Positions 5,603-58,869 of a stretch of DNA of 59,227 nt are shown piece by piece; within the stretch, counting starts at the first letter, position 1, and every line of letters starts with the position of its first letter. The DNA is from Candidatus Eisenbacteria bacterium. Lineage in GTDB: Bacteria > Orphanbacterota > Orphanbacteria > Orphanbacterales > Orphanbacteraceae. The notes beneath the pieces are model-generated. The model was given only the letters and a program-made list of their open reading frames with translations, was not told the origin of the DNA and did no database searches. The position numbers and the translations under genes are program-made. Location of the stretch: assembly GCA_016930695.1 (NCBI GenBank), contig JAFGGD010000053.1, forward strand, positions 1 to 59,227, read 5' to 3'.

Positions 5603-5647
5603 GGGCTGCTCGTACCGGCCGCCGGAGAACGGAAGGACGCGCGGGGC

Positions 5648-6634
5648 ATGAATGACGTAATGGTCACCGGCGGAGCCGGTTTCATCGGATCCCATCTCGC
5701 GAGGCGGCTGGCCGAGCGGGGGGATCGGGTCCGGGTTCTGGACAACTTCTCAACGGGAAAAAGGGACAACCTGGCGGACATCACCGACCGGGTGGAGGTG
5801 ATCGAGGGGGACCTGCGGGACCTGGAAACGGTTCGCCGCGCCGCCCGGGGGGTCCGCTGGATCCTGCACCAGGGAGCGCTGGCTTCGGTCCCCCGTTCCC
5901 TGGCCGATCCCGTCGCCTGCAACGACGTGAACGTCGGTGGGACTCTCAACGTTCTGATCGCCGCGAAAGAGGAGAGCGTGGACCGCGTGGTTTTCGCCTC
6001 CTCGTCGTCGGTTTACGGGAACTCGGAGAAATCGCCGAAACACGAGGACGACCCCACGGACCCGCTCTCCCCCTACGCGGTCAGCAAGAGGGTGGGGGAG
6101 ATGTACGGCGGAGTGTTCCACGGGCTTTTCGGCGTCCCCTTCACGGCGATTCGCTATTTCAACGTCTTCGGTCCCTACCAAGACGAGAAATCGGCTTACG
6201 CCGCGGTGATCCCGATCTTCATCCGCTCTCTTCTGGCGGGGGAAAGGCCGACCATCTTCGGCGACGGGACGCAATCCCGGGATTTCACATTCATCTCGAA
6301 CGTGGTGGACGCCAATCTACTCGCCCTGGAGCGTCCGGACGCGGTCGGCCGGATCCTCAACGTCGCATGCGGCGGAAGCTACGACCTGAACCATCTCGTG
6401 ACGGTCCTGAATCGTCTGCTCGGGACGGATCACGAACCGGTCTACGAAGAGCCCCGCGCCGGGGACGTGAAACACTCGCGGGCGGACATCGAGCGGGCGC
6501 GACGACTGCTCGGGTACGAGCCGAAGGCCGGCTTCGAGGAAGGATTGGAACGGACCCTGGATTGGTACAGGCGGAAGATCGCCGCCGAGGAAGAGAGCTT
6601 CTCCACCGGCCGGGGGAAAAACCGTTCGGAATAA
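5648..6634 (+). CDS. NAD-dependent UDP-sugar 4-epimerase (extended SDR, WbpP/TviC-like)
   Basis: 328 residues. The Rossmann motif VTGGAGFIGSHL is at 6-17, the catalytic S/Y/K are in ASSSSVYG (about S119-S121), Y143 and K147 (SPYAVSKRVGE), and NVFGPYQ is typical of UDP-hexose epimerases. It probably interconverts UDP-GlcNAc and UDP-GalNAc, or their uronic acids, with the dehydrogenase 45 nt upstream. The tail after about 310 is low-complexity. Substrate cannot be fixed from sequence. Confidence 0.88.
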   Translation: MNDVMVTGGAGFIGSHLARRLAERGDRVRVLDNFSTGKRDNLADITDRVEVIEGDLRDLETVRRAARGVRWILHQGALASVPRSLADPVACNDVNVGGTLNVLIAAKEESVDRVVFASSSSVYGNSEKSPKHEDDPTDPLSPYAVSKRVGEMYGGVFHGLFGVPFTAIRYFNVFGPYQDEKSAYAAVIPIFIRSLLAGERPTIFGDGTQSRDFTFISNVVDANLLALERPDAVGRILNVACGGSYDLNHLVTVLNRLLGTDHEPVYEEPRAGDVKHSRADIERARRLLGYEPKAGFEEGLERTLDWYRRKIAAEEESFSTGRGKNRSE

Positions 6635-6674
6635 GTCGGGCGCGCCGCCCCGAACGCGCACCGCGGGTAGGCCC

Positions 6675-7827
6675 ATGACACCCAGTTCTCCATCACGAAC
6701 CCCCGCGGATGGGGCGCGGCTCCCCGCGGACCTGGTGGACTCACTCCACGTGGGTGTCCTTCTTCTCGATCCCTCGGGCCGCGTGGAGCGGATGAACCGG
6801 ACCGCCGAACGGCTGTTGCTCTGCGCGGGCGCGACGCGCGCCGCCGGCGTCGACTTTCGGGAGTTCCTCCCGCCGGAAAGCGTGGTGCGCGAGGCGATCG
6901 AGGAAACCTTCCGGGACGGGCGCGCCGTTCCGAATCGGGTCGGCCCCGTCTCCGGGGCGCGCGGCGCCCGAACGGTCCGCTGCATCACCTCGATCCTTCG
7001 CTCAGCCGCGGGGGAAACCGAGGGAGTGGTCTGCGAGCTGCAGGACGTGACCTCCACCACCCGCCTCGAGGAGGAACTCCACCAGCTGGACCGCCTCGCC
7101 ACGGTGGGGCGCTTCGCCTCCACCATCGCCCACGAGATCCGCAATCCACTCACCGGTATATTCGCCGGCATCCAATTTTTGGAAAAGACACTTCCCGCCG
7201 AGACGGAAGAGCAGAGGATGACTTACCAGATCGTGCAGGAAGAGGTGGAACGGCTGGGCCGCGTCGTGACCGACATGCTCGAGGCGGCGCGGCCGCCGAA
7301 GCCGAAACTGATCGAGTCCGACCCCAACCGTCTATTGGAGAAGGTGGCGCGGCTGCTCGCGGAGGACGCACGCCGGCGAAGAGTCCGTGTCGTGCTCGCC
7401 GCCGACGACACGCTCCCGCGCATTCGGCTCGACCCGGATCTGATCAGTCAGGTCCTTCTCAATCTGGGCCGGAACGCGGTGGAGGCGAGCCCGCCGGGAG
7501 GGAGCGTCACGATGGAGACTTCCGTTTCCGTCGGCGCGCCGACCCGCGGGATCCTCCCCCGGAGCGGCACCCTGCCCGGTATGGAGTTCCGCGTTCGCGA
7601 CGAAGGACCCGGGGTCCCCCCCGATGACCGGGAGAGGATCTTCGAGCCTTTCCACACATCGAAGGACGGGGGGACCGGCCTCGGTCTCTATATCTCCTTT
7701 CAGATCATGGAGCGGCACGGCGGCGCGCTCTGGGTCCGCACCGGTGAAAGGGGGGGGGCGGAGTTCGTCGCGCGCGTCCCTTATCTCCCGGTCGAAGAAG
7801 GGTCGGGCGGATGCGGGGGAGAGACCG

Positions 7828-7838
<11 letters not shown>
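6675..7838 (+). CDS. PAS sensor histidine kinase (NtrB/AtoS-like)
   Basis: 387 residues and no membrane segment, so a cytosolic sensor. The PAS domain is at about 20-125, the H-box IAHEIRNPLTG has the phosphorylated H153, and the N, G1 and G2 boxes of the ATPase follow (NLGRNAVEA, DEGPGVPP, GGTGLGLYIS). It overlaps the downstream response-regulator gene by 11 nt, so the two are a cognate pair. The signal is not apparent. Confidence 0.92.
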
Positions 7839-9246
<1,408 letters not shown>

Positions 9247-9731
9247 CGATCCCTCTCGTGCTTGTCTTCTCCGCGGGGTGTGGTTACAGCCTCTCCGGGA
9301 AGACGAACCCCCACATCCGCACGATCGCCGTTCCCCTGTTCGAAAACGAATCTCTCGAAAAGGGAATCGAGGAGATCCTCACCGCGGAGATCATCGACGT
9401 GATTCAGGAAAACCGTGTCCTCTCCCTGACGGGCGAACGGAACGCCGATTCGGTTCTTCTCGGCAAGATCGTCGACTACAGGCGGAGCGTCTCCTCCTAC
9501 GACGCGAATGAGGACGTGCAGGAGTACAAGGTGGAGATCGTCGTTTCCGTCGAATATGAGGATCGCGTGAAGAGGAAAACCCTCTGGAAAGAGCCTCGCA
9601 TGCACGGCTGGTCCACCTACTATGTAGTCCCCACAGCGGGTTATGAAGTGGAGGAAGAGGAGGACGCTCAGCTCCGTGCCGCCCGCAAACTCGCCGAGGA
9701 TATCAAGACCAAGACCGTCGAAGGCTGGTAA

Positions 9732-10633
9732 CCTACTTATTTATAATATATTTATGCCGTTTTTCGACCTTTTTTCTTAAGTTTCCCTCGTTTTCATCTG
9801 TTTTTATTCGTGTTATGCCGCTTCTTCCCTTAATCCTGAATCCTCTCCTCGCTCGTATCGACCTCCTAAGGGGTTTTCCTCGATGGAGCTGGTATATTTG
9901 CCCCTTTTCCACCTGTATTACGACTACAGACGCCGTACAGGCCTTAGAGGTACCCTCCACAGGGATGCACATCCGGAATCTCTCTCAAACCCACTCTTTC
10001 CGGCGTCTTAAGCGCGTTACACAGTAGAGATCCTTCCTTACCTCGGGAAAGCACTTCAATCGCTCGCCGTAAACATGCTGTTTTTCCTCGTTTCGCCTTT
10101 CATTTCCCGCTTCCTTTTCTCTCCATCTCTCTTCTTCTCTCCGTTTCTTCTTAGGACTTCTTCTCGCAACCCACTTCTATTTCAACAGTTACTTCCATTG
10201 GCGGGGAGGGAGGGTCTTCCTTTTCCCCATGCTTTCCACACCACTTCTATGTTGACATAATATGTATTCTACGACATATCAGAACTGTGGATAAAACAAC
10301 CCCTTCCATCGCCTTCCGCCAGAAAGTCGATCTATCAAAGCTCGACTCCCTGCCTCCATGAAACCGAATATCTCGTATCGGAGAAGCGGATCTTGGATTA
10401 TCCCCGGTGGGACCTCTGAGACGACTGGCGCCTCATCCGTCCGAAGTGACGGATGGAATCGTGCGCTCGATCGAATGGCCGACGCTCCTTCCGGCGGAGG
10501 AAAGTAAACGAAAGGGACGGAAGCGAAGGCGGTCCGGATCGAGGAAATTCACACGTGGACGGCGCCTTTCCCTTCCGGCATTCCGGATCGCGGAGAAACG
10601 TTCGAAAGCCGGATCGAGGGTATTGAAAAGGAA
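9732..10633. other. Long gene-poor region with polypyrimidine tract and DnaA box
   Basis: Roughly 900 bp without a credible gene, lower in GC than its surroundings. 9735-9760 is very AT-rich, and about 10078-10200 is a polypyrimidine tract on the plus strand. A consensus DnaA box (TTATCCACA) lies on the minus strand at 10286-10294, with weaker relatives at about 9903, 10232 and 10397. TTGACA at 10252-10257 could be a -35 element but its -10 partner is poor. A perfect 8-bp hairpin (CATCCGTC / GACGGATG) sits at 10434-10455. I cannot assign a function. Confidence 0.5.
10286..10294 (-). promoter_or_regulatory. Consensus DnaA box
   Basis: TGTGGATAA on the plus strand is the exact complement of TTATCCACA. 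One perfect box plus two or three relaxed boxes in an AT-rich non-coding gap is suggestive. Chance occurrence of a single 9-mer in 59 kb is also quite likely. Confidence 0.35.
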
Positions 10634-42009: not shown

Positions 42010-42069
42010 ACGAAGAGTCATCACGGACCCCCCCAAGAGCAGGACAAAGCAAACGTGTTGGAACACAAT

Positions 42070-45000
42070 ATGTTTCGATTCCGGCGGTCGCGCCGGTCGA
42101 CATCGATTTCCGCAAAATGCGATTTTTCTCGCCTAGGTGCGCGACTGCTCGATCGTGGTGTTCGTCCGCTCTTCCTGTTTGGACTTCTATGGATTCTATT
42201 GCTATCCCTCGCCTCTCCCTGTAGCGCCGATTCCGCTCGTGTCCCCCCCATGGATCGATATCCACTGATATACGGCTCTCTGAAATTCCGCTTGGAGGAA
42301 TCCGATTTTACACGCATGAACCGTTTTGACATCATCGAAATAGGCACGTGGGCCCTGGACGGAGAGAAAGGTTACATCGACTCCCTGCGGGTTCTTCGGG
42401 AAAGAAATCCCGATCTCGTCGTTCTGCTCTACGTGGTATGCAGCTTCTATTGTTCGAATTGGGGCAATCAAGACCTGCCGGGAAAGGCCGAATGGGACGC
42501 GTTGCTGGCGGAACACGACGATGACTGGCTTTTGCGGGACGTAGACGGGGACTTGGTCCGCCAAGAGAGCGTAGAGATGACATGTGACAACGGTAGGCTC
42601 AACTATATCCATAACGACATGGCCAGGGCCTATGCACGATTCATCGCCGATTCCCTTTTTATGGAAAACGCCGATGTCCTTGACGGGATACGGTTAGATG
42701 CAATCGTCAGCAGTGTTTACTATATGAATAATATGTTGGAGCGTGCGCTCCCCGGCTTGGATTCTATCGACACCAATCAAGACGGTATTCCGGATAATCG
42801 CGAGGATCTTCTCGAGGCATGGAGTGCGGGCGTTGACACATTCACGACCACGCTACGAAGACAACTCGGACCGGAACGATTAATTACGTTTAACGGAGCC
42901 CCACCCCTCGAAGCGTACCAGTGGTTGAACGGTCGCTATGTTGAAGAGTTTCCATTCGAATATGGTGTGGGGTGGGAAGGGAGTATGCTTAATTCGAAAA
43001 AAGGCTACCTGTCTTGTCAGGAGGACTACTCGGATCAACCACGCCGTCTCTCCGGTGGATTCACACTCAATTGCGTCTCTCCACACGATTATGATCCGTA
43101 CCGCCTATCCACGAAGGACGAGCCTTATCCGCACCCAATGTTACCTCAATATCTTCGATTTACGCTCGGTTCGGCATTGCTCGGCGACGGCTGGTACACG
43201 ATGACCGGATGGGGGAACACGGTCGATTGGAAGGACGACCCCGTGCCAATCATCCGTTCGACCCTCTGGTGGTTCGACCTGTACGACACGCTCCGGACCC
43301 ACCTGGGAACGCCGACGGGAGAGGCGGTGCGGGACACCGCGAACGGGCTGGATCGTTTCGTCCGCGAGTACACGGGCGGAAGGGTGCGGGTCTACCCGCA
43401 GCTGGAGCGGGGGATCTTCGATCTGCGCCCCCACGTCGCTTTTCACGGGGAGACGCCGGAGACGGCGGTCCCCGGCGAGGCGATCCCGATCCGCTGGAGC
43501 GCGGAGGACCCCAACGGGGCCGCCCCTCTCGAGGTGGAACTGCGCCTCTCCCGCGACGGAGGCGCCACCTTCCCGGAGAGGATCGATCTCTTCGGGAGAA
43601 GCGATTCACTCACCTGGTGGACCGTGGACGGGGAGGCGGGGGAGAGCTGCGTCTTCCATCTCACCGCCGCCGACACCTCCGGCCTCAGCGACACGGTGAC
43701 GAGCGCCCCCTTCCTCCTCTCGGACCCGCGCGTCGCCGACGGAGGCGCCGCCGAGGTGCACCCCGCCTTCTGGATCGTGAACACGCCGGCGCTCTACTGC
43801 ACACTCTCGGTCGCCGTGGAGGACACGAGCGGGAAGGGATCGGGATGGGACCGCGCCGACCTGTTCCTCCCCGCGGGAATCGCCTTCCTCTCCTTCGCCG
43901 GCGCGGAGAGGGAGGGCGCCCCCCTCACCGCGGCCGCCTCCCGCGAAGAGAACGTGGTCCGGATCGCGCTCGCCCAGACCGCCGACGGACCGGAACCGGT
44001 CCACTTCCGCCTGCTCCTCGGCACTCCCTCCCTCCCGCGGCCGGACTCGCTCCTCTTCTCGGTCTCGGTGGAACACTCCTCGGCACCCGGCGAAACGCTC
44101 TGGCTCCCGCCGGGAAACGGAAACGGCATACCCGGGGACGGCGACGGGCTCGCGGTCCTCTGCGACTTCGGCCCGCCCGCCGAGCTCAGCGTGGAGCCCC
44201 CCTATGCGATCCTTCAGGCGGGGGACACCCTCCGATTCGACGCCGAGGGATGGGACCAGGCGGGGAACAGCGTCGAGGTGGAGCCGATATGGAGCGCCGT
44301 CGATTCGATCGGCGTCGTGGACGGGGGCGGGCTCTTCCTCGCCCTCCGCCCCGGTTCGCTCTCCGTGGCGGCCTCGGTGGCGGATCTGGAGGCGTACGCG
44401 ACGATCCGGATCACGGCGGGCGACCCGGAATCGCTCCTCGTCCTGCCGGAGAGTCTCGCCGTCACCACGGACGACTCGGCCCTTTACGAGGCGTGGGCAT
44501 GGGACGGCCTGGGGAACCCGATCGACACCGCCGTCGCCTGGTCCGTGGAGGACACGATCGCGTCCATCGACTCCGCCGGGCATCTCGAGCCGGAACGCCC
44601 CGGCTCGACCTTCGTGATCGCGACGCTCGGCGCCCTCGAAGCGCGCTCCCCCCTCCGGATCGCGCCCGGCGCGCCGGCTCTCGCGCGGATCGAGCCCCGC
44701 TCCCCGGCGATGGGACTCTGCGACTCCATCTCTTTTACCTGCGATCTTTTCGATCTCAAGGGGAATCCGACCGGGGGGACGGTGCTCTGGTCCGTCACGG
44801 ACGGGGTCGCGGCGATCGACTCCGCCGGTCTCCTCCGCCCCGTCGCCGTCGGCGAAGGGTGGGTGCGCGCCGCATGCGGCGCGGTCCGCGACTCGGTTCC
44901 CTTGCGGGTCCTCTCCTCCGCCGTCGTCTCCTGGATCCTCGAGCCGAGTCGCCCGACCGTTTCGGCCGATTCGACCCTTCTCTTCACGATGCGGGGCGTC

Positions 45001-46707
45001 TCCTGCTCCGGAGAGACCCTCGCCGTCTTCCCCGATTGGATCCTCGAAGGAGGCGCGGGGGCGCTGAACGATTCGGGCGTCTTCACCCCTCTCCTCGCCG
45101 GCGAAGCGCTCGTGATCGCCGACGCGGGAGCCCACCGGGAAACGACCACCGTCACCGTGACCCCCGGCGCGCCGGCGGCGGTCGCCATCGATCCTCGAGA
45201 GGCCGAAACGGAACCGGACTCGACGATCCTTTTCCACGCCGTGGTGACCGACCGGCTCGGCAACCCGATCGACACATCCGTGGCCTGGGCGGGGACGGAC
45301 TCCGTGGGATCGATCGACGGCGGAGGTCTCTTCACCGCGATCGCGCCGGGGAGGGCGCGGGTGACGGCGACCCGAGGCGACGCCGCGGACACCGCTTGGG
45401 TCACCGTGCGCGGGCCGGTAGATCCCGGTCCCGTGGAAACGGCCCTCTACCGAATCGTCGTGACGGACGCCCGCGCCGACGGCCCGGAGGGCGCGCGCGC
45501 CGACTCCATCCGCTTCACGGTCACCCCGCACGACTCCCTCGGGGATCCCTTCCCGGCCATCGGGCCCGAGTCTCTCCAAGTCACCTTCCGCCCCCTCGAT
45601 CCGACGCTCCTCTTCTGCGGCGGCGAGGCGGAAACCTTCGACCTCCACGTCCCTCTCCCCGCCGAGATCGCCCTCCCCGCGGGCGGCGCGGGCGGTTGGG
45701 GATCTTTCGCGATCGAGGCGACCTCCTCCCTCGCGCGTTTTTCCGTCGCCGACACGGCGGCGATCGCCACGGCGGACCCGAACGGCGATCTCCGCGCCGG
45801 ACTCGAGGACGCGGCGCTTCTCCTCGCCGACCGGGCGTCGGGCGGCTCCTTCCGTTCCGATCTGGACGGGAACGGCACGACGGATCTCTTCGACATGGAG
45901 GCGCTCGCCGCCGCATGGGGCGAAGGGTGCGGCGACCCGCCGGCCGAAGGAACCTGGCCCGGCGAGCTCCCCCTTTGGATCGGTCGGGAAGAGTTCGATC
46001 CGTCCTGCGCGGCCGGGTCGACCTCCACCCTGCTCAGCCTCTACGCGGGAAGCATCGACTCCCTCAGGGCGTTGGAGATCTCCCTTCCCAATCCCACGGG
46101 CGGCGTCTATCCCGTCGACCCGGTCGCGGGAATTCACTGGAAGGGTCCCGCGGTCTATCGGCTCCCGAGCGGGAAGGAAGAGATTCGCCTGTTCGTGGTG
46201 GACACCGTCGGCGCGCACCGCCCCGCCGGCGATATTCTTTTAGAGGTGCGCTTCTGCGGCGTCGAAATGGACGACTTCGCCGGCGGTCATTCTCTCTTCC
46301 GCACGCTCCGCTCCTCCGGCGTCGTCACGGACCGATGCGAGGCGCCCATCGAGTTCCATCTCGACACGGACGACGATGAGGAACCGGGCTTGGATCCGGA
46401 CGACGGCGGTGGGACCGACGCGCCCGTCGATTTCGCCCTCTTCCCGGCCCGCCCCAACCCGTTCCGGAGCAGCGCCTCGATCCGTTACCGGGTGGCCGCC
46501 CCCGGCGGCTCCGTCTGGCTCGGCGTCTACAACGTCCGCGGCGAGAGGATCGCCGTGCTCGAAAACGGCCACCGCTCCCCCGGCGAATACGACCGGAATT
46601 GGGACGGGCGGGACGTCAACGGCCGCTCCGTTTCTCCGGGCGCCTACTTCGTCCTCTTCCGCTCCCCCGCGGAGACTTTTACTCGCAAGGTCGTTCTGGT
46701 CCCCTGA
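42070..46707 (+). CDS. Giant secreted glycoside-hydrolase-like multidomain protein, chimeric composition
   Basis: 1545 residues from ATG 42070 (GTG 42055 possible). A signal anchor (RPLFLFGLLWILLLSLASPC) is followed by a TIM-barrel-like domain (about 55-420, LIYGSLKFRLEESD, DVLDGIRLDAIVSS), similar to putative glycoside hydrolases of the GHL15 kind. Then come a beta region, about five BIG2-like repeats (about 715-1115, each with W-S-x-x-D-S-I-x-x-I/V-D), a dockerin-like pair of Ca loops (DPNGDLRAG, DLDGNGTTDLFD), and a FlgD-like sorting domain (ARPNPFRSS, NWDGRDVNGRSVSPGAYF). Up to about 43200 the DNA is much less GC-rich than after it, so the N-terminal domain may be imported. Confidence 0.85.
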   Translation: MFRFRRSRRSTSISAKCDFSRLGARLLDRGVRPLFLFGLLWILLLSLASPCSADSARVPPMDRYPLIYGSLKFRLEESDFTRMNRFDIIEIGTWALDGEKGYIDSLRVLRERNPDLVVLLYVVCSFYCSNWGNQDLPGKAEWDALLAEHDDDWLLRDVDGDLVRQESVEMTCDNGRLNYIHNDMARAYARFIADSLFMENADVLDGIRLDAIVSSVYYMNNMLERALPGLDSIDTNQDGIPDNREDLLEAWSAGVDTFTTTLRRQLGPERLITFNGAPPLEAYQWLNGRYVEEFPFEYGVGWEGSMLNSKKGYLSCQEDYSDQPRRLSGGFTLNCVSPHDYDPYRLSTKDEPYPHPMLPQYLRFTLGSALLGDGWYTMTGWGNTVDWKDDPVPIIRSTLWWFDLYDTLRTHLGTPTGEAVRDTANGLDRFVREYTGGRVRVYPQLERGIFDLRPHVAFHGETPETAVPGEAIPIRWSAEDPNGAAPLEVELRLSRDGGATFPERIDLFGRSDSLTWWTVDGEAGESCVFHLTAADTSGLSDTVTSAPFLLSDPRVADGGAAEVHPAFWIVNTPALYCTLSVAVEDTSGKGSGWDRADLFLPAGIAFLSFAGAEREGAPLTAAASREENVVRIALAQTADGPEPVHFRLLLGTPSLPRPDSLLFSVSVEHSSAPGETLWLPPGNGNGIPGDGDGLAVLCDFGPPAELSVEPPYAILQAGDTLRFDAEGWDQAGNSVEVEPIWSAVDSIGVVDGGGLFLALRPGSLSVAASVADLEAYATIRITAGDPESLLVLPESLAVTTDDSALYEAWAWDGLGNPIDTAVAWSVEDTIASIDSAGHLEPERPGSTFVIATLGALEARSPLRIAPGAPALARIEPRSPAMGLCDSISFTCDLFDLKGNPTGGTVLWSVTDGVAAIDSAGLLRPVAVGEGWVRAACGAVRDSVPLRVLSSAVVSWILEPSRPTVSADSTLLFTMRGVSCSGETLAVFPDWILEGGAGALNDSGVFTPLLAGEALVIADAGAHRETTTVTVTPGAPAAVAIDPREAETEPDSTILFHAVVTDRLGNPIDTSVAWAGTDSVGSIDGGGLFTAIAPGRARVTATRGDAADTAWVTVRGPVDPGPVETALYRIVVTDARADGPEGARADSIRFTVTPHDSLGDPFPAIGPESLQVTFRPLDPTLLFCGGEAETFDLHVPLPAEIALPAGGAGGWGSFAIEATSSLARFSVADTAAIATADPNGDLRAGLEDAALLLADRASGGSFRSDLDGNGTTDLFDMEALAAAWGEGCGDPPAEGTWPGELPLWIGREEFDPSCAAGSTSTLLSLYAGSIDSLRALEISLPNPTGGVYPVDPVAGIHWKGPAVYRLPSGKEEIRLFVVDTVGAHRPAGDILLEVRFCGVEMDDFAGGHSLFRTLRSSGVVTDRCEAPIEFHLDTDDDEEPGLDPDDGGGTDAPVDFALFPARPNPFRSSASIRYRVAAPGGSVWLGVYNVRGERIAVLENGHRSPGEYDRNWDGRDVNGRSVSPGAYFVLFRSPAETFTRKVVLVP

Positions 46708-46744: not shown

Positions 46745-47554
46745 TCAGTACTGGCCGAGGGTGCCGTCCTGCCGGGCCTTCCGTATGGCGAAGCGCGCCG
46801 AGAGAATGCCGAGAAGCAGGGCGGCGGCGGTGAAGATCAAGAGGGCGGCCAGCTCCTTTTTCAGCTCGCCGATCCCCGCGCCGGTCAGGAGCGCCATGCG
46901 CATCCCCTCCAGCGCGTAAGTGAGGGGAATCACCCAGGCCGCCTTCTGCAGCCAAGCGGGGAGAATCATCACCGGGTAGTAGACGCCCCCCAACAGCCGG
47001 GAGAGGGAAGTGAAGACCCAATTCACCGGGTTCCCGCGCTTCAGCACCAGGATGAAGCTGGCGGCCAGGATGCCGAGGCTGGAGAAGGCGATCACCGTGA
47101 GGCCCAGGAAAAGAAGCGCCGCCGGCAGATTGGGATGCTCCATCTCGAGACCGAAGAAGAGGACGCCGAGGAGCAAGTAGATCAGAATCTGAAAAGAAGC
47201 CCAGAGAAAACTCCAGATCGCCGACGAGAGCAGATAGGTCGAAAAACGGGTGGGCGTCGCGAGGACCGCCTCGAGCGTTCCCAGCACCTGCTCGTCCCGG
47301 ATCCGCGAGGAGAATGCGTTCAGCCCGGTGGAGAGGTAATTCGAGAGGGCCACGCCGATCAGCACGAAAGAGAAATAGTCCCCGCCGTACTTCCCGAGAT
47401 AGGGATTCATCGTCTGATCGATCAGTTTGGATAAAAAGTAAAAAAGGGTGAGCGTGAATGCGATCCCGAGGAGTTGCATGCCGAAGGCGAGCCGGTAGCT
47501 CGTCGTTACCTGCAGGTCTTTCCGGAGGAAAGCGAGCGGGCGCGCGATCTTCAT
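46745..47554 (-). CDS. ABC-2 permease of the RiPP exporter
   Basis: 269 residues with six predicted membrane helices and the ABC-2 features SRIRDEQVLGTLEAVLATPT and LLGGVYYPVMILPAWLQKAA. The start overlaps the ATPase stop by four bases. It is the last gene of the precursor peptide operon and presumably exports the modified peptide. Confidence 0.88.
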   Translation of the reverse strand: MKIARPLAFLRKDLQVTTSYRLAFGMQLLGIAFTLTLFYFLSKLIDQTMNPYLGKYGGDYFSFVLIGVALSNYLSTGLNAFSSRIRDEQVLGTLEAVLATPTRFSTYLLSSAIWSFLWASFQILIYLLLGVLFFGLEMEHPNLPAALLFLGLTVIAFSSLGILAASFILVLKRGNPVNWVFTSLSRLLGGVYYPVMILPAWLQKAAWVIPLTYALEGMRMALLTGAGIGELKKELAALLIFTAAALLLGILSARFAIRKARQDGTLGQY

Positions 47555-48555
47555 CGCCGGTCCTCCTCCTCGGCGAACCGCCGGTAAACCTCCTCCAGCG
47601 AACCCCGGCCCATCTCCATGCGAAGGATCTCATCGCACGACGCGCGAACCGCTTCGAGGAGCGCCGAGGCTCGGAAACCCTCCCGATCCGCCCGGACGCG
47701 GCAGGCGTGCGTCTCCCCCTCCCTCCCGTCCGGCGGATCGACACCCCGCACGCCCGGGAGAGAGGCGATCCGCTCCGTCCATTCCGCCGTGGGCCCGCGC
47801 ACCTCCAGGTCGATACGGATGGGAACGTCGAAACGGCCGAGGATCTGTTCCGGCTCGCCGCAGGCGAGCAGCTCCCCCTTGTGGAGAAAGGCGAGACGAT
47901 CCGCCACTCGATCCACCGCCCCCAGGTCATGGCTGGAGATCAGCACCGCCCTCCCCGTCTCGCGGGAGATGGAACGGATCCTCTCCAAAAAACGGCCGGC
48001 GGTGTAAGGGTCGAGTCCGCGGGTCGGCTCGTCGAGGAGGAGCACCGGCCTGCCCCCGAGAAGGGCGCGCGCCACCGAGAGCTTCTGGCGCGTGCCCGTG
48101 GAATAGGTCATGAAACGGTCGTCGATCTCGCCGATCCGAAGCAGCTCCGCCGCGTCCTCCAGGTCTCTCTCGATCCGTTCCGGCGGGAGACCGAGGAGCC
48201 GTCCGAAGAAGCGGAGGTTCTGCCGCCCCGTCAGGCGGTAGTAGAAGCTGCGCTCCTCGCTCATGCAATAGCCGATGCGGCCGCGGGTCTCCAGACTCCT
48301 CCGCGTCACGTCGAAACCGTGCACCTCCGCGCTTCCCTCGGTGGGAAGAACCAGCGAGGCGAGGATCTTCAGCACCGTCGACTTCCCGGAACCGTTCGGG
48401 CCGAGGAGGGCGACGATCTCCCCTTCCTCCACTTGGAAGCCGACTTCGTGAAGCGCGCGAAGACGGGACCGCCGGAAGGGCGCGCGCATCCATTCGCCGA
48501 GTCCGCGGCGGATCGGGTACCACTTGGTCAGGTTTCGGACCCGGACGGCCGGCAT
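47551..48555 (-). CDS. ABC ATPase of the RiPP exporter
   Basis: 334 residues from ATG 48555 (GAGAGGGAACTC upstream). Walker A GPNGSGKSTV, signature YSTGTRQKLSVARAL, Walker B VLLLDEPTRGLD, switch His in ISSHDLGAV. The last 90 residues (FDVPIRIDLEVRGPTAEWTE onward) form the regulatory tail common in ABC-2 ATPases. There is no peptidase C39 domain, so leader removal must come from the B2-type protease encoded in the same operon. Confidence 0.92.
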   Translation of the reverse strand: MPAVRVRNLTKWYPIRRGLGEWMRAPFRRSRLRALHEVGFQVEEGEIVALLGPNGSGKSTVLKILASLVLPTEGSAEVHGFDVTRRSLETRGRIGYCMSEERSFYYRLTGRQNLRFFGRLLGLPPERIERDLEDAAELLRIGEIDDRFMTYSTGTRQKLSVARALLGGRPVLLLDEPTRGLDPYTAGRFLERIRSISRETGRAVLISSHDLGAVDRVADRLAFLHKGELLACGEPEQILGRFDVPIRIDLEVRGPTAEWTERIASLPGVRGVDPPDGREGETHACRVRADREGFRASALLEAVRASCDEILRMEMGRGSLEEVYRRFAEEEDRR

Positions 48556-48565: not shown

Positions 48566-49741
48566 TCAGCGTGGCGCACGCAACCAGGCGATCAACAGGT
48601 GAAGAATCAGGTCGCCCGAAGCGTAGAGCCCGGCGAAGAAACGACGGAGCCGGGAGCCGAAGGGCGGCCGGCTCTCCTCGGAAAAATACACCTCGGCGCG
48701 AAACGTCTCGTCCGGAAAAAGCAGCCGGAAGAGAAAAACCGCCGGACGCCGATATCCGAAATGATACCCGCACCAGAGGCGGAGGCGAACCACACGTCCC
48801 TGCTTGATGCCGAAAAAGTCGGTCCAACGGAAACGGAAGGCGAAACGGCGGATTCGCGGGGGCGCCTCGCGCAGCCTCCTTTTGTCGCCGCGAAACTTGT
48901 CCAGGAAGAAGAGCGCCGTGCGCGCTTCCTCCTCGATCGACCACTCCCGGGCGCGCCCCAAAAGAGCGTCGCGGTTCACCTCCCCTCCCTCTTCGAGCAC
49001 CCGGTCCAGGTCGACGATCCTCTTTAACGACGTGAACTGGTCGAGTCGGAGGCTGGCGCAGAGAAAGACCGCCTCGTCCAGAGGGTTCAACACGCGGATC
49101 TCGCCGCCCCGGAACGGGATCTCTCTCCCCTTGCGGAAGAGTTCCGCCGTGTCGACGTTCCGATTCACCGGGAAGGGGAGGAGGTTCCAGTGAAGCTCCA
49201 CAACCTCCAGAGCGGCGCGACGGCGCACGAATACCAAGTGGAAGTGATGCCGCCTGTACCATGCCCGCGACTGCACTCCCTCGAACAGGTCATAGCCGAG
49301 ACGGCGCAGTACCCGTTCGCCCAAGGAGAGGCTCTCGGGGGGAATGAGCAGGTCCAGGTCCCTCACGTCCCGCCGCGCGGGATCGCCGAAATACCGCGCG
49401 CCGAAAGGAAGCCCCTTGAGAACGATGTGCGGAAGCCCCATCGCCCGGAACGCGCCGGTCACCTCGTCGAACTCGCTCTCCTTGACCAGGGAACGAAACG
49501 CGGCGCGCTCTCCTTCGCCGATGATCCGACCGGCGAGCGCGTCGGGGAAAAGGGAACGGATCGGTTCGTCGCCCGCCAGAATCGAAGCGGCGAGAGAAAC
49601 GGTGCGCGAGCAGAAAAGGAGTTCCTCGAGAAGATCCCAGTCGAACCAACGGTCCCGGGAGAGCGTCTCCCGGAGATGATCCGAATTCGGTTTCTTCCGG
49701 AGCAACTCCAGCAGGAACTCCGCCTCCCTTTGCCTGCGCAT
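48566..49741 (-). CDS. Nucleotidyltransferase-family protein (NTP_transf_5 type)
   Basis: 391 residues from ATG 49741. The diagnostic stretch HIVLKGLPFGARYFGDPARR is followed by DVRDLDLLI, giving K109, G110 and the metal-binding D128 and D130. The helical remainder includes ELHWNLLPFPVNRN. This family is recurrent in lasso-type and PqqD/HPr-kinase peptide clusters, where a nucleotidyl or other transfer onto the peptide has been proposed. Ten bases separate it from the ATPase gene, 20 from the B2-type gene. Confidence 0.85.
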   Translation of the reverse strand: MRRQREAEFLLELLRKKPNSDHLRETLSRDRWFDWDLLEELLFCSRTVSLAASILAGDEPIRSLFPDALAGRIIGEGERAAFRSLVKESEFDEVTGAFRAMGLPHIVLKGLPFGARYFGDPARRDVRDLDLLIPPESLSLGERVLRRLGYDLFEGVQSRAWYRRHHFHLVFVRRRAALEVVELHWNLLPFPVNRNVDTAELFRKGREIPFRGGEIRVLNPLDEAVFLCASLRLDQFTSLKRIVDLDRVLEEGGEVNRDALLGRAREWSIEEEARTALFFLDKFRGDKRRLREAPPRIRRFAFRFRWTDFFGIKQGRVVRLRLWCGYHFGYRRPAVFLFRLLFPDETFRAEVYFSEESRPPFGSRLRRFFAGLYASGDLILHLLIAWLRAPR

Positions 49742-49761: not shown

Positions 49762-50247
49762 TTATTCGCGGCGCGGGAGCGTGAACACGCAGGTGTATCC
49801 CGCGAGGTCCTCTCCCCTCTCCAGGAACGGTTCGCCGCCGAGAACGAGCCATGCGTGCCCCTGCAAATCGGCGCGCTCGGGGCTGACCCCGAAACCGATC
49901 TCCGTTTCGAGGCCGCTCCCGCGCAACAGATTGGCGAGGATCAGCGCGCGGCGCAAGCAGGTTCTTCGGAAGGGGAACCAGCGCGCGCGCAGAAGACCCT
50001 CCGTGACGGCGACGGCGATGGCCGCCTTCTCGACGTCGAAGGGGAGCGCGGCGCTCGTGGAAGGGGGCGGGTAGAGCGCCTCCACGCGCCGAAAAGAGAG
50101 CAACACCGGTAGGCGGATCGCCTCCCAGGCGGCGCGCAGGAGAAAAGGGAAGTTCTCCGGATCGAAGAGCACGCGAGCGGGGAGAGGCTGCTCGAGGATC
50201 AGCCGCTCCAGGCGGGCCGGCGTTTCCTCGGTTGAGCGCTCGTTCAT
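49762..50247 (-). CDS. Lasso B2-type transglutaminase-like leader peptidase
   Basis: 161 residues from ATG 50247 (GGAGGAAGATCGG upstream). The conserved core is TCLRRALILANLLRGSGLE with catalytic C97, then GHAWLVLGGEPF with catalytic H131, the pattern of B2 proteins that cut the leader after the RRE partner binds it. The N-terminal 70 residues are less conserved. The longer frame to 50304 overlaps the kinase gene and is not needed. Confidence 0.87.
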   Translation of the reverse strand: MNERSTEETPARLERLILEQPLPARVLFDPENFPFLLRAAWEAIRLPVLLSFRRVEALYPPPSTSAALPFDVEKAAIAVAVTEGLLRARWFPFRRTCLRRALILANLLRGSGLETEIGFGVSPERADLQGHAWLVLGGEPFLERGEDLAGYTCVFTLPRRE

Positions 50248-50300: not shown

Positions 50301-51269
50301 TCACCCGGAGGGCGCCTCCTGCAGCCCGGCGATCCTCTCCGGAAGCCGCCGTAGGTCCCTTCCGAAGAGAAGGCGATAAGAACGCACGCTCTCGACGAAC
50401 CGCGAGAGGATCCGGATGTGCCTCTCCATCGCGTCCCGCCGCGCCGGCAGAACGGACTGGGGCATCAGCCGGATCATCGCCTCATGCGGGGGGAGCGGCT
50501 CGAATTCGCTTCTCGCCCGGTTCACGATTTCCGGAAAGAGAAGCAGGCTCGGCGTGACGCCGGTGCGTCGGCCCGGACCGGGCAGCCTTTCTTCGGGAAG
50601 AAGGAATTTGCGTCCCGAGGGAACGAGATGTTCCTTCCATTCCGGGAAGAAGCGCGCGGTTCCCTTGCCGACCTTCACCGACTCGGGGAAGGAATCGAGC
50701 CGGATCGCCTCCTCTTCCAGGGAGACAAAGAGAGTGTCGTCTGCGACGAAGGGTGCCCCCGCGGCGATGGCCGAAAGCACGGCCGTCGACTTGCCGGCGC
50801 CGCTCGGGCCCGATACCACCACCCATCTCCGGTCGACCCGAAAACAGGATCCGTGCACCGGATAATGCCCGCGATGGCGCATCCATTCGAGCAGGGGAAT
50901 GAAAAAGAGCCTGTGGCCGATCACCCATCCGCCCGGCAGATGATCCGGATGAATCCTCCCTTCCACTTCACCCCGATCGAGTCGATAGCTCGCGATCGAC
51001 TTTCCGTCCACCACGATCCACCCCTCCTCGCCGGCGCCGTAGAGGGAGAAATCATGATAGGGGGACGCGCCCAGTTCCTCCATGCGATCGAAGTCGGGGA
51101 GGTCCCGTGCGCCGTCTTCGACGTGGAAGCGGAAGGAAAGGTCGGGAGGATCGTCGAAGGGTTCGGTGCGCAGCTGATGGGCGACGTCGAGGATTCTCTC
51201 CACGATCGTGGAGTCGGCGGAACGGACCCGGATGCGCTCCCCGAGAAGGGAAAGGTAAAGGTTCTGCAT
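50301..51269 (-). CDS. HPr-kinase-like peptide kinase
   Basis: 322 residues from ATG 51269, 14 bases after the PqqD stop. The HPr kinase C-terminal fold is recognisable: YPVHGSCFRV, then P-loop SGPSGAGKST (154-162), then FVADDTLFV. The first 130 residues are specific to this peptide-cluster family. In the paeninodin lasso cluster a kinase of this type phosphorylates the C-terminal Ser of the precursor. Here S29, T41, S42 and T46 of the precursor are possible targets. Confidence 0.85.
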   Translation of the reverse strand: MQNLYLSLLGERIRVRSADSTIVERILDVAHQLRTEPFDDPPDLSFRFHVEDGARDLPDFDRMEELGASPYHDFSLYGAGEEGWIVVDGKSIASYRLDRGEVEGRIHPDHLPGGWVIGHRLFFIPLLEWMRHRGHYPVHGSCFRVDRRWVVVSGPSGAGKSTAVLSAIAAGAPFVADDTLFVSLEEEAIRLDSFPESVKVGKGTARFFPEWKEHLVPSGRKFLLPEERLPGPGRRTGVTPSLLLFPEIVNRARSEFEPLPPHEAMIRLMPQSVLPARRDAMERHIRILSRFVESVRSYRLLFGRDLRRLPERIAGLQEAPSG

Positions 51270-51283: not shown

Positions 51284-51568
51284 TCAGGAGGAAACGGTGA
51301 CGACGAGCCCCTGTTCGAGCATCCTCTCCGCCAACTCCAGGCAATCCCGGAGCGCTGTCTCCTCGTCCACCTCGAACCGATCCACGACTTTTCGCGCGAT
51401 CGCCGACAGAGGTTTGCCGCCGTCGATCTCGCCCCAAATCACTTGCCCTGTACGATTCAAGCTGAAATAAAATCCGCTGTCCAGATCGACGAGAATCCCC
51501 TTCCCCTCGATCGTTCGCCACGGGACGTTGGAGGATCGTTTGATAACGGTGTCGGGACCGACTTTCAC
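51284..51568 (-). CDS. PqqD-family RiPP recognition element (B1-like)
   Basis: 94 residues from GTG 51568 (MKVGPDTVIKRSSNVPWRTI). Typical PqqD signature: GILVDLDSGFYFSLNRTGQV then IWGEIDGG. The winged helix binds the leader peptide and presents it to the other enzymes. The frame continues upstream to 51688 through an intrinsic terminator, so that part is most likely untranslated. GGAAGGGAG lies 11 bases before the chosen GTG, which leaves some doubt about the exact start. Confidence 0.88.
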   Translation of the reverse strand: MKVGPDTVIKRSSNVPWRTIEGKGILVDLDSGFYFSLNRTGQVIWGEIDGGKPLSAIARKVVDRFEVDEETALRDCLELAERMLEQGLVVTVSS

Positions 51569-51615
51569 CTTCGCACTCTCTCCCTTCCTGATATCCGCCG
51601 CCGAACCGAGCCCGT

Positions 51616-51650
51616 AAAAAACGGGGAAGCCTTGCCGTGCTGGCTTCCCC
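51616..51650 (-). terminator. Intrinsic terminator between precursor and modification genes
   Basis: On the minus strand GGGGAAGCC / GGCTTCCCC, a perfect 9-bp stem with a 10-nt loop, then G and six T. It starts 35 bp after the precursor stop and lies before the PqqD start. Partial read-through would give abundant precursor mRNA and less enzyme mRNA. Confidence 0.85.
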
Positions 51651-51684
51651 ATCTTATCACGAGACCGCGAGACCGAATAACAGA

Positions 51685-51831
51685 TCAACCGCCGGTTTGC
51701 TTGGCGCTGGTCTCTTCCTTGCCGACGTAGAGGGCGTCATGCGAGAGCAAGGTGATCTCCTTCAGACTGCCGTGTCGGAGCAACTCCGGCCGCTCATAAG
51801 ATTCCCGCTCTCTCTTGTCCACGCTATCCAT
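51685..51831 (-). CDS. RiPP precursor with lasso-type leader
   Basis: 48 residues, ATG 51831 to TGA 51685. The leader contains YERPELLRHGSLKEIT, an exact fit to YxxPxLxxxGx5T recognised by lasso RRE proteins. Cleavage two residues after that Thr position rule (Thr at -2) would release a 20-residue core starting LSHDALYVGK and ending AKQTGG. There is no Asp/Glu at core positions 7-9 and no Gly/Cys at position 1, so classical lasso ring closure is unlikely. It is too short for ordinary gene finding. It is the first gene of the operon and is followed by a terminator. Confidence 0.88.
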   Translation of the reverse strand: MDSVDKRERESYERPELLRHGSLKEITLLSHDALYVGKEETSAKQTGG

Positions 51832-51970: not shown

Positions 51971-52000
51971 AATCTACACGCTGATAAAGAGGATTGTCAA
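51971..52000 (-). promoter_or_regulatory. Sigma-70 promoter of the RiPP operon
   Basis: Minus strand TTGACA (51995-52000), 18-bp spacer, TAGATT (51971-51976). The start of transcription would be near 51964, giving a leader of about 130 nt with a GC-rich hairpin region before the precursor ATG. Confidence 0.6.
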
Positions 52001-55049: not shown

Positions 55050-55310
55050 CTATCGAAGCCCGCTCCAACTTCACCGCCGTGCCTTCATGGTCGCGAGAAG
55101 CCGAACGACCGTGAAAACCTCGTGGGAGTGGCTATCGATTCGTGGCTCGTTCCATCCTCACCGCTAAGCCTTCATGGTCGCGAGAAGCTCAACGACCACA
55201 AAAAGCCCGGAAAAACCGCCATCGCTTTGTGGCCCGCTCCAACTTCCCGCCGTGCTTTCATGGTCGCAAGAACCCGAACGACCGTGAAAAGAAGTCCGGA
55301 AATAGCACTA
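55050..55310. repeat. Three degenerate tandem repeats of about 87 bp
   Basis: The element TTCATGGTCGCGAGAAG recurs at 55084, 55171 and 55257 (last copy TTCATGGTCGCAAGAA). Each copy is preceded by a TATCGA/ATCGCT...CCGCTCCAACTTC segment and followed by CCGAACGACCGTGAAAA-type sequence. Period is 87 then 86 bp. Frames through it are interrupted between copies 2 and 3, so it is not a coding repeat. There is no spacer/repeat alternation of CRISPR type. The gap 54974-55421 has no gene. Confidence 0.75.
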
Positions 55311-55421: not shown

Positions 55422-56033
55422 TCAAAACCGCCTGAAAAGACCGACGACCTTCCCCACGATTCGGAACTCTTCGCTGGAGGGATCGACCGCAATCGGTTGC
55501 ATCGTTCGGTTCTCCGGCCGGAGTTCGATCCGGTTTCCCTTGCGATAAAAACGCTTCACGGTCGCTTCCTCCCCGATCAACGCCACGACGATCTCGCCGT
55601 TTCTCGCTTCGGAAGCCGGACGAACCAGGATCCAATCGCCGTCGTCGATGTGGGCTTCGATCATGCTGTCCCCGTTGACGCGGAGAAGAAACTCGTCTCC
55701 CCCCTTTCGGAAGGAGGGATCGACCACGATTTTCTCTTCAATGTTCTCCTCGGCGAGAATAGGCTGGCCCGCCGCGACTCGGCCGACGAGGGGAACCAGG
55801 TTCGCGTCCTCTTCCCGGTCGATATGGATCAGTTCCAGCGCTCTCGACTTACCGAGCCCCCTACGGATATACCCTTTTCTCTCCAGAGCGGTGAGGTGAT
55901 CCACCACCCCCTTGGTGGATCGAATCCCGAAGCGGAATCCGATCTCCCGGATCGTTGGGGGATAACCGTTTTCTCGGTAGTGCTCGACCAGAAACTCATA
56001 GATCTCGTTTTGTCTCTCGGTCAGCTCCTTCAT
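55422..56033 (-). CDS. lexA: LexA repressor
   Basis: 203 residues. Winged helix at 1-65 (ERQNEIYEFLVEHYRENGYP, GIRSTKGVVDHLTALERKGY). Cleavage site A88-G89 in RVAAGQPI. Catalytic dyad S123 (NGDSM) and K160 (ATVKRF). It represses SOS genes and self-cleaves on RecA filaments. Its ATG overlaps the stop of the DnaE-like gene (ATGA), so the repressor is the second cistron of an SOS operon. Confidence 0.96.
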   Translation of the reverse strand: MKELTERQNEIYEFLVEHYRENGYPPTIREIGFRFGIRSTKGVVDHLTALERKGYIRRGLGKSRALELIHIDREEDANLVPLVGRVAAGQPILAEENIEEKIVVDPSFRKGGDEFLLRVNGDSMIEAHIDDGDWILVRPASEARNGEIVVALIGEEATVKRFYRKGNRIELRPENRTMQPIAVDPSSEEFRIVGKVVGLFRRF

Positions 56034-58765
56034 GACACCTCTCTCTCTCCGGATGACGGAACGGCCGCACGGCGGCGGCCGCCCACTCCTTCGGCACGAT
56101 CGAGGAAGGGGAACGCGGTTTGCGAATCGGCCCTCTTTCCATGAACCCCTCCGTTTCTTCCGGCGAGCCTCCTCGCGGCCGCACTCTCCCTACGGGGAAC
56201 GACGGAACGTCCTCTGTCGGGAGGTCGGCGCGCGGGGACGGGCAGTGTTCCCCCCTTCTCGCCACTCTCCTGAAAGGCGCGCGCGAGCCGAAGCAGCTCC
56301 TCCCTCGGGAACCGATCGCGCGCCAAGCGTTCCAGTAGATCGGCGTTGGAAAGGAAAGGACCCTCACGGTCCCGCGCTCTCTCGAAACGCGCCGCCTTTT
56401 CCCCGTCCATGCCGGGCACGGCGACGAGGCCGATGCGAACCGCCCCCTCTTCCTCGAGAAAAGCGAAAACACTGCGGTTTCGATCGAGAGGAAGAAGCCG
56501 GATCCCCTCTCTGCGGTAGCTCGCCATCCTTTCCCTCAGCGTCTCCCTCCGCCACGCCGCCGCGTTCAGCGAAGCGCAGGCGAATCGCACGGGATCCACG
56601 CTCTTGCGCGCCGCGGCGCGCGCGATCCGCGCGGCGAGCGCTTCGAAATCCGCCCTCCTCGCCGCATGAGGAGCGAGGCCGAGAAGGATCGAGAAGATCC
56701 TCGCCGCGCGCGCCGGAGACGCGCCTCGATCCGCCGCCCGGCGCAAAAAGAGAGAGCGATCTCCCGCCAGATCCGCGCCGTTTCCGGCCCGCATTTTCCT
56801 GAGCAACCCTTCCGCTTCCTCCCATCCCCCGCCGGAAACGGAGCGGATGATCTGCAACAACTGTTCCTGATAGAAGGGAATTCCTTCCGTCTCCCTGAGA
56901 ATCGTTTCCAACCCGGCGGCGAGAGGAGGGGGTTGTCTCTCTCCCTCACGAATCCGAACGATACGATCGAAAAGTTCGGTCAACTGGCGGTTCCCTCCGG
57001 CCGCCGCCAAGAGAACGGTGAGGTCCGACACGGATCGAGGAGGAAAACGGCGCATTCCGGCCGCCATCGCGGCGCTTCTCCCCTCGAAAAGACCGGCCCA
57101 CTTCCCATCGCGCAATAGATAGAGAGGATCGGCGCCATTTCCTGGAATCGAGCCGCTCTCCCGTAGCGTTCCGAGAAGGGTCGATGCATGAACCGCGATC
57201 CCTACGGCTTCGGCGGCGCCCCGGCTTTCCGGATCAAAACGCCAAAGGTCGACCCCTCTCTCGACCCACACCAACGTTTTTCGATCCCTGCGGAAGCCGA
57301 CCACGAATCGATTCGCACTCGTCGTTTTATTCCCACCGAAAAGAGGATCCGGACTCGGGTTCCCTCGATTGTTCGCGTCGAAGGGTTGTCGGGTGGGTGG
57401 TTTTTGGTTCGTTCCGGATCCTTTTTCCGATGGGCCGATCGCTTTTCCCGCCTCCGATTCGTTGAGACGCTCCGCGAGTGTGACAGGGAGAAGGGCGGGA
57501 AGGACGCCGCCGGGGAATCGCCGCTCTAAAACCCCGGGGAGAAGGAGAGCGCTCTTGGGATCCGCCTCCACGAGAATCCGCGCCTCCCTCTCGGCGGACA
57601 CGAAGGAATCGATGGACGAAAGGACCTCTTCTCCCCCCATTTCAGCCGGCTGGAGCCCGGAAAGGCGTCCGATCAAACCGCCCGAGAGAAGGGAGGTGTG
57701 AAGTTCCGCGTCCGGCTCGCTCCTGCGGACTGTTCGGAAGGCCTCGGCCAGATAAACCGCCGCCGGGAGGAGACCGCTCTCCTCCAACCTCCACAGTTCA
57801 CTCCAGAACCGTCTCTCCGCTTCCCGCCTCCGCCAACGCGGCTCCTTTCCAAAGAGACGCCCCAGTTCCCGGAGACCGACGCGGATCATCTCGTCCCTTT
57901 CGGCGCCCCGTTCCCCCGTCCAGGGAACGTTCTCCCACTCCCGCAGACAACGCTCGGAAATCTCCAACGTCTTACGGAGAGGTTCCGGATCGTCCGCGTA
58001 ACGGAGCGACATCTCCTCCGATCCCGGCAGATGAGAGGCACCCTCTACGCGGAGGGGATCGATCCTCCCCTCCCCCTCTTCCCCCGCGAATCTCTCCCGC
58101 ATCCGTAGGAGCACGTTCCGATCCACTTCCTTAAGGTAGCGGACCGGATCGGCGGCGATGCGCGGCGTTCCATATCGGGATTCCAGGCGACGCAGAAATG
58201 GCTCCACGAGACTCTCCCGCGCGGAACCGGTCCGAGAGGTCTCCAGATAGAGGCGGGATCGATCGAAACGTTCCGCGAGGAGACCGGCGGCGCGGTGCGC
58301 CTCTCCCACCCTTCCGGCGGCATAGGCGCCGGAAAGCGGCCCACTCAGCCCCCCCGTCATCACGATCCACCCGCCGGCCGCCTCCGCCAGTTCATCGATG
58401 CGTGCAATCCCGGCGAAACCCGGCGCGCGATCCTCCCGGTGGAGCCTTTCTAGGAAGCGCCCGAGACGGTCCCTTCCCTCCGCACTCTCCGCGAGAAGGG
58501 TGAGCGTGTAGGGGGCGGTCATTCTCTCCCTCTCCCCCGGAATGGGGAAACGGACCTCCACCTCCGCGCCAAGAATCAGCCGGATCCCTCTCTCCCTCGC
58601 GAAAGAGGTCGCTTGAACCGCTCCCAAAAGCCCGCTCCGATCGGTCACCGCCGCCGCCCCCAACCCGGCGCGAGCGAGCGCCTCCACCGCCTCCTCCGGC
58701 TCGATCGCCGACAGGAGTGGTGAGAAGCGTGTGTGAATCCGAAGCGGGACGTATGAGGGGCTCAA
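56030..58765 (-). CDS. Inactive DnaE-like (Pol III alpha-like) protein in the lexA operon
   Basis: 911 residues from TTG 58765 (AAGGAG six bases upstream). The PHP domain is recognisable (YVPLRIHTRFSPLLSAIEPE, GLGAAAVTDRSGLLGAVQAT, ILGAEVEV). The metal ligands HxH and TDH have become LRIH and TDR. Where DnaE has GRGSAAGSLV and PDxDxDF there is SGGLIGRLSGLQP and VEADPKSA, so the polymerase carboxylates are gone. The later fingers/HhH part is conserved in outline (FYQEQLLQIIRSVSGGG, RIGLVAVPGMDGEK, GPFLSNADLLERL). It lacks the OB fold. A linker at about 485-525 is Pro/Asn-rich. It looks like a structural relative of ImuC/DnaE2. Confidence 0.8.
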   Translation of the reverse strand: MSPSYVPLRIHTRFSPLLSAIEPEEAVEALARAGLGAAAVTDRSGLLGAVQATSFARERGIRLILGAEVEVRFPIPGERERMTAPYTLTLLAESAEGRDRLGRFLERLHREDRAPGFAGIARIDELAEAAGGWIVMTGGLSGPLSGAYAAGRVGEAHRAAGLLAERFDRSRLYLETSRTGSARESLVEPFLRRLESRYGTPRIAADPVRYLKEVDRNVLLRMRERFAGEEGEGRIDPLRVEGASHLPGSEEMSLRYADDPEPLRKTLEISERCLREWENVPWTGERGAERDEMIRVGLRELGRLFGKEPRWRRREAERRFWSELWRLEESGLLPAAVYLAEAFRTVRRSEPDAELHTSLLSGGLIGRLSGLQPAEMGGEEVLSSIDSFVSAEREARILVEADPKSALLLPGVLERRFPGGVLPALLPVTLAERLNESEAGKAIGPSEKGSGTNQKPPTRQPFDANNRGNPSPDPLFGGNKTTSANRFVVGFRRDRKTLVWVERGVDLWRFDPESRGAAEAVGIAVHASTLLGTLRESGSIPGNGADPLYLLRDGKWAGLFEGRSAAMAAGMRRFPPRSVSDLTVLLAAAGGNRQLTELFDRIVRIREGERQPPPLAAGLETILRETEGIPFYQEQLLQIIRSVSGGGWEEAEGLLRKMRAGNGADLAGDRSLFLRRAADRGASPARAARIFSILLGLAPHAARRADFEALAARIARAAARKSVDPVRFACASLNAAAWRRETLRERMASYRREGIRLLPLDRNRSVFAFLEEEGAVRIGLVAVPGMDGEKAARFERARDREGPFLSNADLLERLARDRFPREELLRLARAFQESGEKGGTLPVPARRPPDRGRSVVPRRESAAARRLAGRNGGVHGKRADSQTAFPFLDRAEGVGGRRRAAVPSSGEREVS

Positions 58766-58813
58766 ATGGGACTCCTTTCCGGCGTGTCCGCCGTCCTGCA
58801 CAAAAGGTACTAC

Positions 58814-58869
58814 ACATTTGTACACACGGTCAAGGTTTTTTTGTCCGTCCGAGAAAAATCTACATTTGT
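58814..58869. promoter_or_regulatory. Candidate SOS operators upstream of the dnaE-like/lexA operon
   Basis: ACATTTGT occurs at 58814-58821 and 58862-58869. The first lies between a possible -35 (TTGACC) and -10 (TAGTAC) of the operon on the minus strand. A further dyad, GTTCGG-GTAA-CCGAAC, is at 58868-58883. No known LexA box type fits exactly; one of these is the likely autoregulatory site. Confidence 0.4.

Follow-up and report, generated by a model that had tools for sequence, protein, structure and literature searches.

A precursor gene with a lasso-type leader beside a kinase and nucleotidyltransferase gene block without a linked cyclase

We analyzed a 59,227-nucleotide stretch of Candidatus Eisenbacteria DNA (henceforth the window), which corresponds to contig C53 in a genome of 3.8 Mb (G000), together with the rest of its phylum, which comprises seven genomes of a single family. 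The window encodes a 48-residue peptide, MDSVDKRERESYERPELLRHGSLKEITLLSHDALYVGKEETSAKQTGG, followed by a stop codon. Downstream of it lie, in this order, genes for an RRE, an HprK-like kinase, a B2 peptidase, a PF14907 nucleotidyltransferase, an ABC ATPase and an ABC-2 permease (Table 1). Synteny of this enzyme block extends to all seven genomes, and the block adjoins the same Nudix gene in each. Facing the permease gene is a gene for a 1550-residue protein with an FlgD-like C-terminal tail (42055-46707, plus strand), and FlgD-tailed proteins are also encoded near the block in several relatives. Elsewhere in the window, a 44-nt direct repeat, CCGCCGTGCCTTCATGGTCGCGAGAAGCCGAACGACCGTGAAAA, occurs in three copies at 55053-55290 (82-93% identical, spaced by 87 and 86 nt) in the intergenic region that separates a glycosyltransferase gene from a LexA-like gene; its centre gives 3 matches against 0 expected. 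The LexA-like gene and a large ORF with a PHP/DnaE-like start (55422-58825, minus strand) look by eye like an SOS mutagenesis pair.

Table 1. Coordinates of the precursor gene, its transcription signals and the enzyme block in the window.
Feature	Position	Strand	Basis
Sigma-70-like promoter of the precursor gene (TTGACA, 18 nt, TAGATT)	51971..52000	-	10/12 match
Precursor peptide, 48 aa	51685..51831	-	ORF translation, NF033521, independent profile, alignment
Intrinsic terminator or attenuator hairpin with T-run, between precursor and enzyme genes	51616..51655	-	Folding
Discrete RRE, PqqD fold, B1-like; start codon uncertain	51284..51571	-	PF05402 58.8 bits (cut-off 23.4); 7/7 genomes
Predicted HprK/PEPCK-fold peptide kinase, K-like; H139, GPSGAGKS 154-161, DD 177-178	50301..51269	-	Profiles, alignment, model
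B2 leader peptidase	49762..50247	-	NF033537 57.2 bits (cut-off 33); PF13471 55.5 bits
NTP_transf_5 nucleotidyltransferase, N-like, D-x-D at 128-130	48566..49741	-	PF14907 123.5 bits
ABC transporter ATPase, DrrA-like	47551..48555	-	Profile matches; syntenic in 7/7 genomes
ABC-2 type permease, DrrB-like	46745..47554	-	Profile matches

The initial annotation had described the ORF as a RiPP precursor with an exact lasso-leader motif directly ahead of a PqqD/RRE gene, and both points were borne out. The segment YERPELLRHGSLKEIT matches YxxPxLxxxGx5T exactly, and this strict motif occurs once in the six frames of the window, against a mean of 0.03 in simulated windows of the same dinucleotide make-up. 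When the peptide was compared with the NCBI lasso-leader models, as had been suggested, it scored 19.9 bits with NF033521 (lasso_leader_L3), for which the curated cut-off is 19 bits. We also built a profile from nine homologous peptides of other genomes, leaving out the genome of the window. Among 1136 six-frame ORFs of the window, this profile retrieved the precursor at E = 1.1e-12, and the next ORF at 0.1. The leader spans residues 1-28 and includes Y12, P15 and T27, and the predicted cut falls after Leu28. Placing Thr27 at -2 gives the core LSHDALYVGKEETSAKQTGG. It has 20 residues, begins with Leu and has neither Asp nor Glu at positions 7-9, all as previously described, and it ends in Gly. 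Ser30 of the precursor is core Ser2, an invariant position.

The precursor gene is flanked by transcription signals. The promoter scan found one promoter where 0.2 were expected. TTGACA promoters also precede a precursor gene in G004 (11/12) and in G001 (11/12), and a TTGAC promoter-like motif lies upstream of the precursors. The hairpin behind the gene was identified by folding (-23.8 kcal/mol, z = -3.9, equalled by 0 of 200 shuffles), having been missed by a simple terminator scan owing to its loop limit. Equivalent hairpins have z-scores of -5.3 in G004 and -4.6 in G001, and one stands directly 3' of each of the 11 precursors found in the phylum, although in the tandem pair of G004 the hairpin of the first gene comes after the second gene. 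Given a promoter on one side and a hairpin on the other, the precursor gene is probably transcribed by itself, and the enzyme genes would follow an attenuator or have a promoter of their own. The ORF is short and barely exceeds the NF033521 cut-off, as a chance ORF with a fortuitous motif might. However, homologues occur in six genomes and the position is kept in three genera, and the independent profile and the synteny rule such an ORF out; we give it practically no weight. Because the independent profile retrieves it at E around 1e-12, and because it is preceded by a sigma-70-like promoter and followed by a strong terminator hairpin, we conclude that the ORF is a real gene.

The enzymes of the block retain their catalytic motifs. 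The RRE is present in a single copy per genome. Among solved structures it is closest to the lasso RRE TbiB1 (5v1u; E = 2.4e-12), and it scores under the cut-offs of both NCBIfam lasso-PqqD models. In the kinase, His139, G154xSGxGKS161 and D177-D178 are invariant in eight proteins, and the structural model (pLDDT 90) has the PEPCK/HprK fold. The same elements (His, P-loop and Asp-Asp) matter in the lasso-peptide kinase BsfK (PMC10368454). The nucleotidyltransferase model (pLDDT 76) has a nucleotidyltransferase fold, with MenT1 and ANT(2'') as nearest structures; the D-x-D is invariant and a PF14907 protein is present in all seven genomes. The B2 gene starts with ATG at 50247, a GTG at 50304 being possible, and a Cys, a His and an acid are conserved. 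This acid is an invariant Glu, not Asp, at what we take from McjB to be the position of the triad acid, where Asp would be expected. The ABC-2 permease is 71-82% identical in six relatives.

We identified 11 precursors in six genomes of the phylum. Four are beside the block (the window, G001 and two in tandem in G004) and seven are elsewhere (G000:C13, G001:C20, two on G002:C2, G003:C41, G004:C2 and G006:C202); none was found in G005, which is 82% complete. The initial annotation would have been refuted by a leader not conserved in orthologous loci, and this check came out in its favour, although four of the seven genomes have no precursor next to the block; three of these four carry one elsewhere. 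Alignment of the homologous precursors likewise showed a conserved leader in which the Gly of the motif is nevertheless replaced by Glu or Asp in the nearest relatives, G001 and G004. The second precursor of G000, MEQQKAKLPYEKPEVVRHGNLKEITMTSFTPPDNQMKHSG, is encoded at G000:C13:45412-45534 (L067:7913-8035, plus strand), about 70 bp downstream of the gene for a 1267-residue FlgD-tailed protein, an arrangement that recurs in five genera. Six of the seven unlinked precursors lie about 70-110 bp downstream of a gene for a large secreted protein with an FlgD-like C-terminal domain, and they mostly precede a second FlgD-tailed gene, which encodes a BNR/sortilin-like protein.

All 11 precursors have Tyr(-17), Pro(-14), Ile(-3), Thr(-2) and Ser(+2) in common, and Ser(+2) is the sole invariant hydroxyl residue after the cut. 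The cores vary in sequence and in length, from 9 residues (G002b) to 22. The first core residue is L, V, I or T, an acid is present at positions 7-9 in six precursors and absent in five, including that of the window, and three end in Ser. In two species of one genus the leader is identical in protein sequence past residue 4 while the cores differ at seven residues. The leader profile gave no strong match outside the phylum in a search of 386 genomes; there were weak matches (E = 0.002-0.01), of which those in G231 and G208 are lasso-leader peptides in RiPP-like loci. The initial annotation overlooked the invariant Ser(+2) and the unlinked precursors, as well as the absence of a cyclase.

No homologue of Asn synthetase was found beside the block in any of the seven genomes, in a search of the block loci and their open frames. 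In G000, PF00733 is detected on other contigs only, and no protein of the phylum reaches the cut-off of the lasso-cyclase model NF033535. The Asn synthases with a readable N-terminus in G001 and G003 start with MCGI and so carry the glutaminase Cys; a further, partial match on G003:C1 has an unreadable N-terminus. From these sequences, G001 and G003 appear to have no Asn-synthetase paralogue resembling a lasso cyclase. The locus has the YxxPxL...Thr(-2) leader, an RRE (B1) and a B2 leader peptidase. Of the features that define lasso biosynthesis, it lacks a cyclase in the cluster and a consistent core Asp or Glu at 7-9, and therefore we do not file the block as a lasso cluster.

A true lasso peptide could still arise if the cyclase were encoded elsewhere, and one gene of G000 counts against a cyclase-less reading. 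This gene (G000:C23:66385-68274) encodes an Asn-synthetase-like protein whose SGGxD ATP site is intact and which lacks the glutaminase Cys, and it has homologues in G002, G004 and G005. However, it scores 54.7 bits with the lasso-cyclase model, for which the cut-off is 525, and matches Asn synthase and XrtA amidotransferase models better; the RRE, B2 and precursor are all absent beside it. No full-length homologue was found in G001, which has both precursor families, or in G003, which is listed as 100% complete. Moreover, positions 7-9 of the window core include no acid, and a core of nine residues, as in G002b, is too short for a ring and a tail. We therefore rejected this gene as the cyclase. 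As it fits other families better and is not matched by a full-length homologue in either G001 or G003, a cyclase acting in trans, and with it a lasso product, appears possible but unlikely.

Since none of the seven genomes has a cyclase in the block, the peptide of the window is probably not a lasso, contrary to the initial annotation, which had read it as an unusual lasso core. The features behind its claim of new core chemistry are as it described them, and the claim itself is supported only in part. For a non-lasso peptide, starting with Leu and having no acid at positions 7-9 would mean that the ring-closing rule does not apply, and not that the chemistry is new. Citrulassin A already carries Leu1, so Leu1 alone is within the range of known lasso cores.

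We consider it reasonably probable that this ORF encodes the linked precursor for a RiPP pathway of the lasso type that lacks a cyclase and has a linear phosphorylated product, which may also be glycosylated or nucleotidylated. The RRE would bind the YxxPx[LIV] leader and pass the peptide to the HprK-like kinase, which would phosphorylate a core hydroxyl, most likely that of the invariant core Ser2 (Ser30). B2 would cut after Thr(-2)-x(-1), which is Thr-Leu in this precursor, the nucleotidyltransferase would attach another moiety, probably at the phosphate, and the linear product would be exported through the ABC-2 pair. The same enzymes would serve the second precursor of G000 (on contig C13); that unlinked precursors use the block is suggested by the leader they have in common and by each genome having one RRE copy. 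The neighbouring kinase and PF14907 protein have predicted activities compatible with the +80 Da or nucleotidyl adducts that the initial annotation proposed to look for. Known pathways offer precedents. BsfK phosphorylates core Ser3 with the aid of the RRE BsfB1, which also assists BsfB2, and this RRE-stimulated phosphorylation precedes leader removal by B1/B2 (PMC10368454). In pseudomycoidin, the nucleotidyltransferase puts hexoses on the phosphate (reviewed in PMC8498205). The gene with its conserved leader, the syntenic block with intact catalytic motifs and no linked cyclase, the unlinked paralogues and the invariant Ser are observations; we infer the order of steps, the modified residue, the group added by the nucleotidyltransferase, the export and the biological role.

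The site of phosphorylation could differ. Ser(+2) could be a recognition residue, part of the site seen by B2 or the RRE, while the kinase acts on another Ser or Thr; paeninodin-type kinases act on a C-terminal Ser (PMC8498205), and three of the 11 precursors end in one. However, the window peptide ends in Gly and eight of the 11 have no C-terminal Ser, so we rejected the C-terminal Ser as the general site. Ser(+2) alone is invariant among the hydroxyl residues past the cut and the nearest pathway, bsf, modifies a Ser near the N-terminus, which leaves another phosphosite a small but appreciable chance. It is also conceivable, although we think it a slim prospect, that the product is no secreted natural product at all and that the leader is a tag on peptides serving as signal, carrier or small-molecule substrate, as PqqA does for PQQ. 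The presence of the block in every genome of the phylum, the hypervariable cores and the conserved location of a second precursor family, which mostly adjoins a gene for a secreted FlgD-tailed protein, would suit such a role. Against it, PQQ-like pathways have an invariant core, whereas here the Ser alone is kept, and the block has no downstream enzymes of small-molecule metabolism.

More broadly, and only tentatively, the phylum may hold a probably housekeeping RiPP class that uses a cyclase-free lasso leader/RRE/B2 module to make linear phospho- (or phosphoglyco- or nucleotidyl-) peptides from scattered precursors, one family of which is associated with a large secreted protein that has an FlgD tail. 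That all seven genomes have the block points to a physiological role rather than to a strain-specific antibiotic. If the cyclase-less reading is true, the module that recognizes lasso leaders has become separated from lasso formation and been put to use in peptide phosphorylation, and a single enzyme block can act on unlinked precursors. The system would also offer a simple test bed, free of threading, for the HprK-like kinase and the uncharacterized PF14907 nucleotidyltransferases. Because genome mining relies on the cyclase (PF00733) as the lasso marker, such pathways are missed or scored as false positives. Among roughly 8,000 discrete RREs of the lasso type, RRE-Finder reported about half to have no co-occurring leader peptidase and cyclase, and considered these possible false positives or uncharacterized RiPP classes (PMC7470986). 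No precursor, kinase or nucleotidyltransferase is given for those cases, whereas the window block is coherent, with a peptidase and precursors. In the literature, in which subscription journals were thinly covered, we found no description of a cyclase-less lasso-leader system with a kinase and a nucleotidyltransferase.

Related gene sets occur in other lineages. In G231 (L103, G231:C7:31000-47000, about 3960-10550), two tandem lasso-leader peptides lie upstream of a Mur-ligase-like gene and genes for an RRE, B2, a radical SAM enzyme, an HprK-like kinase and a PF14907 nucleotidyltransferase; there is no Asn synthase in the stretch. As G231 belongs to a different lineage, cyclase-less lasso-leader blocks extend beyond the phylum of the window. 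Two further loci (L032 in G048 and L033 in G046) group RRE-like, HprK-like, radical SAM and B2 genes in a SynChlorMet-like manner, with no cyclase in the stretch.

We compared the window block with known systems. SynChlorMet-type cassettes (TIGR04248/TIGR04249) share its PqqD-like, HprK-like and B2 proteins; they and the G231 block carry a radical SAM enzyme, which the window block does not, and the G231 block also shares PF14907, a lasso-type leader (on tandem peptides) and the lack of Asn synthase. The paeninodin and pseudomycoidin clusters combine K and N tailoring enzymes with B1/B2 as here, but they have a cyclase and are modified at the C-terminal Ser (PMC8498205), the target of other lasso kinases and unlike the site proposed here. 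The closest characterized system is the bsf cluster of Bradymonas sediminis (BsfA-B1-B2-C-D-K-N; PMC10368454). Both have a YxxPxL leader, a discrete RRE, a B2 peptidase, a nucleotidyltransferase and an HprK-like kinase with the H, P-loop and DD motif; the nucleotidyltransferase of the window is a putative counterpart of PsmN/BsfN. Phosphorylation falls on a Ser near the core N-terminus in bsf, and likewise in our proposal, at core residue 3 in the former and position 2 in the latter. Only bsf has the lasso cyclase BsfC, core Gly1 and Asp8, Ile(-2) and Ser3, whereas the window system has no cyclase, Thr(-2), Ser2, no consistent acid and extra, unlinked precursors, and an ABC-2 pair where bsf has BsfD (of whatever type). 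By this analogy, the pathway of the window would resemble the first half of a phosphorylated-lasso pathway.
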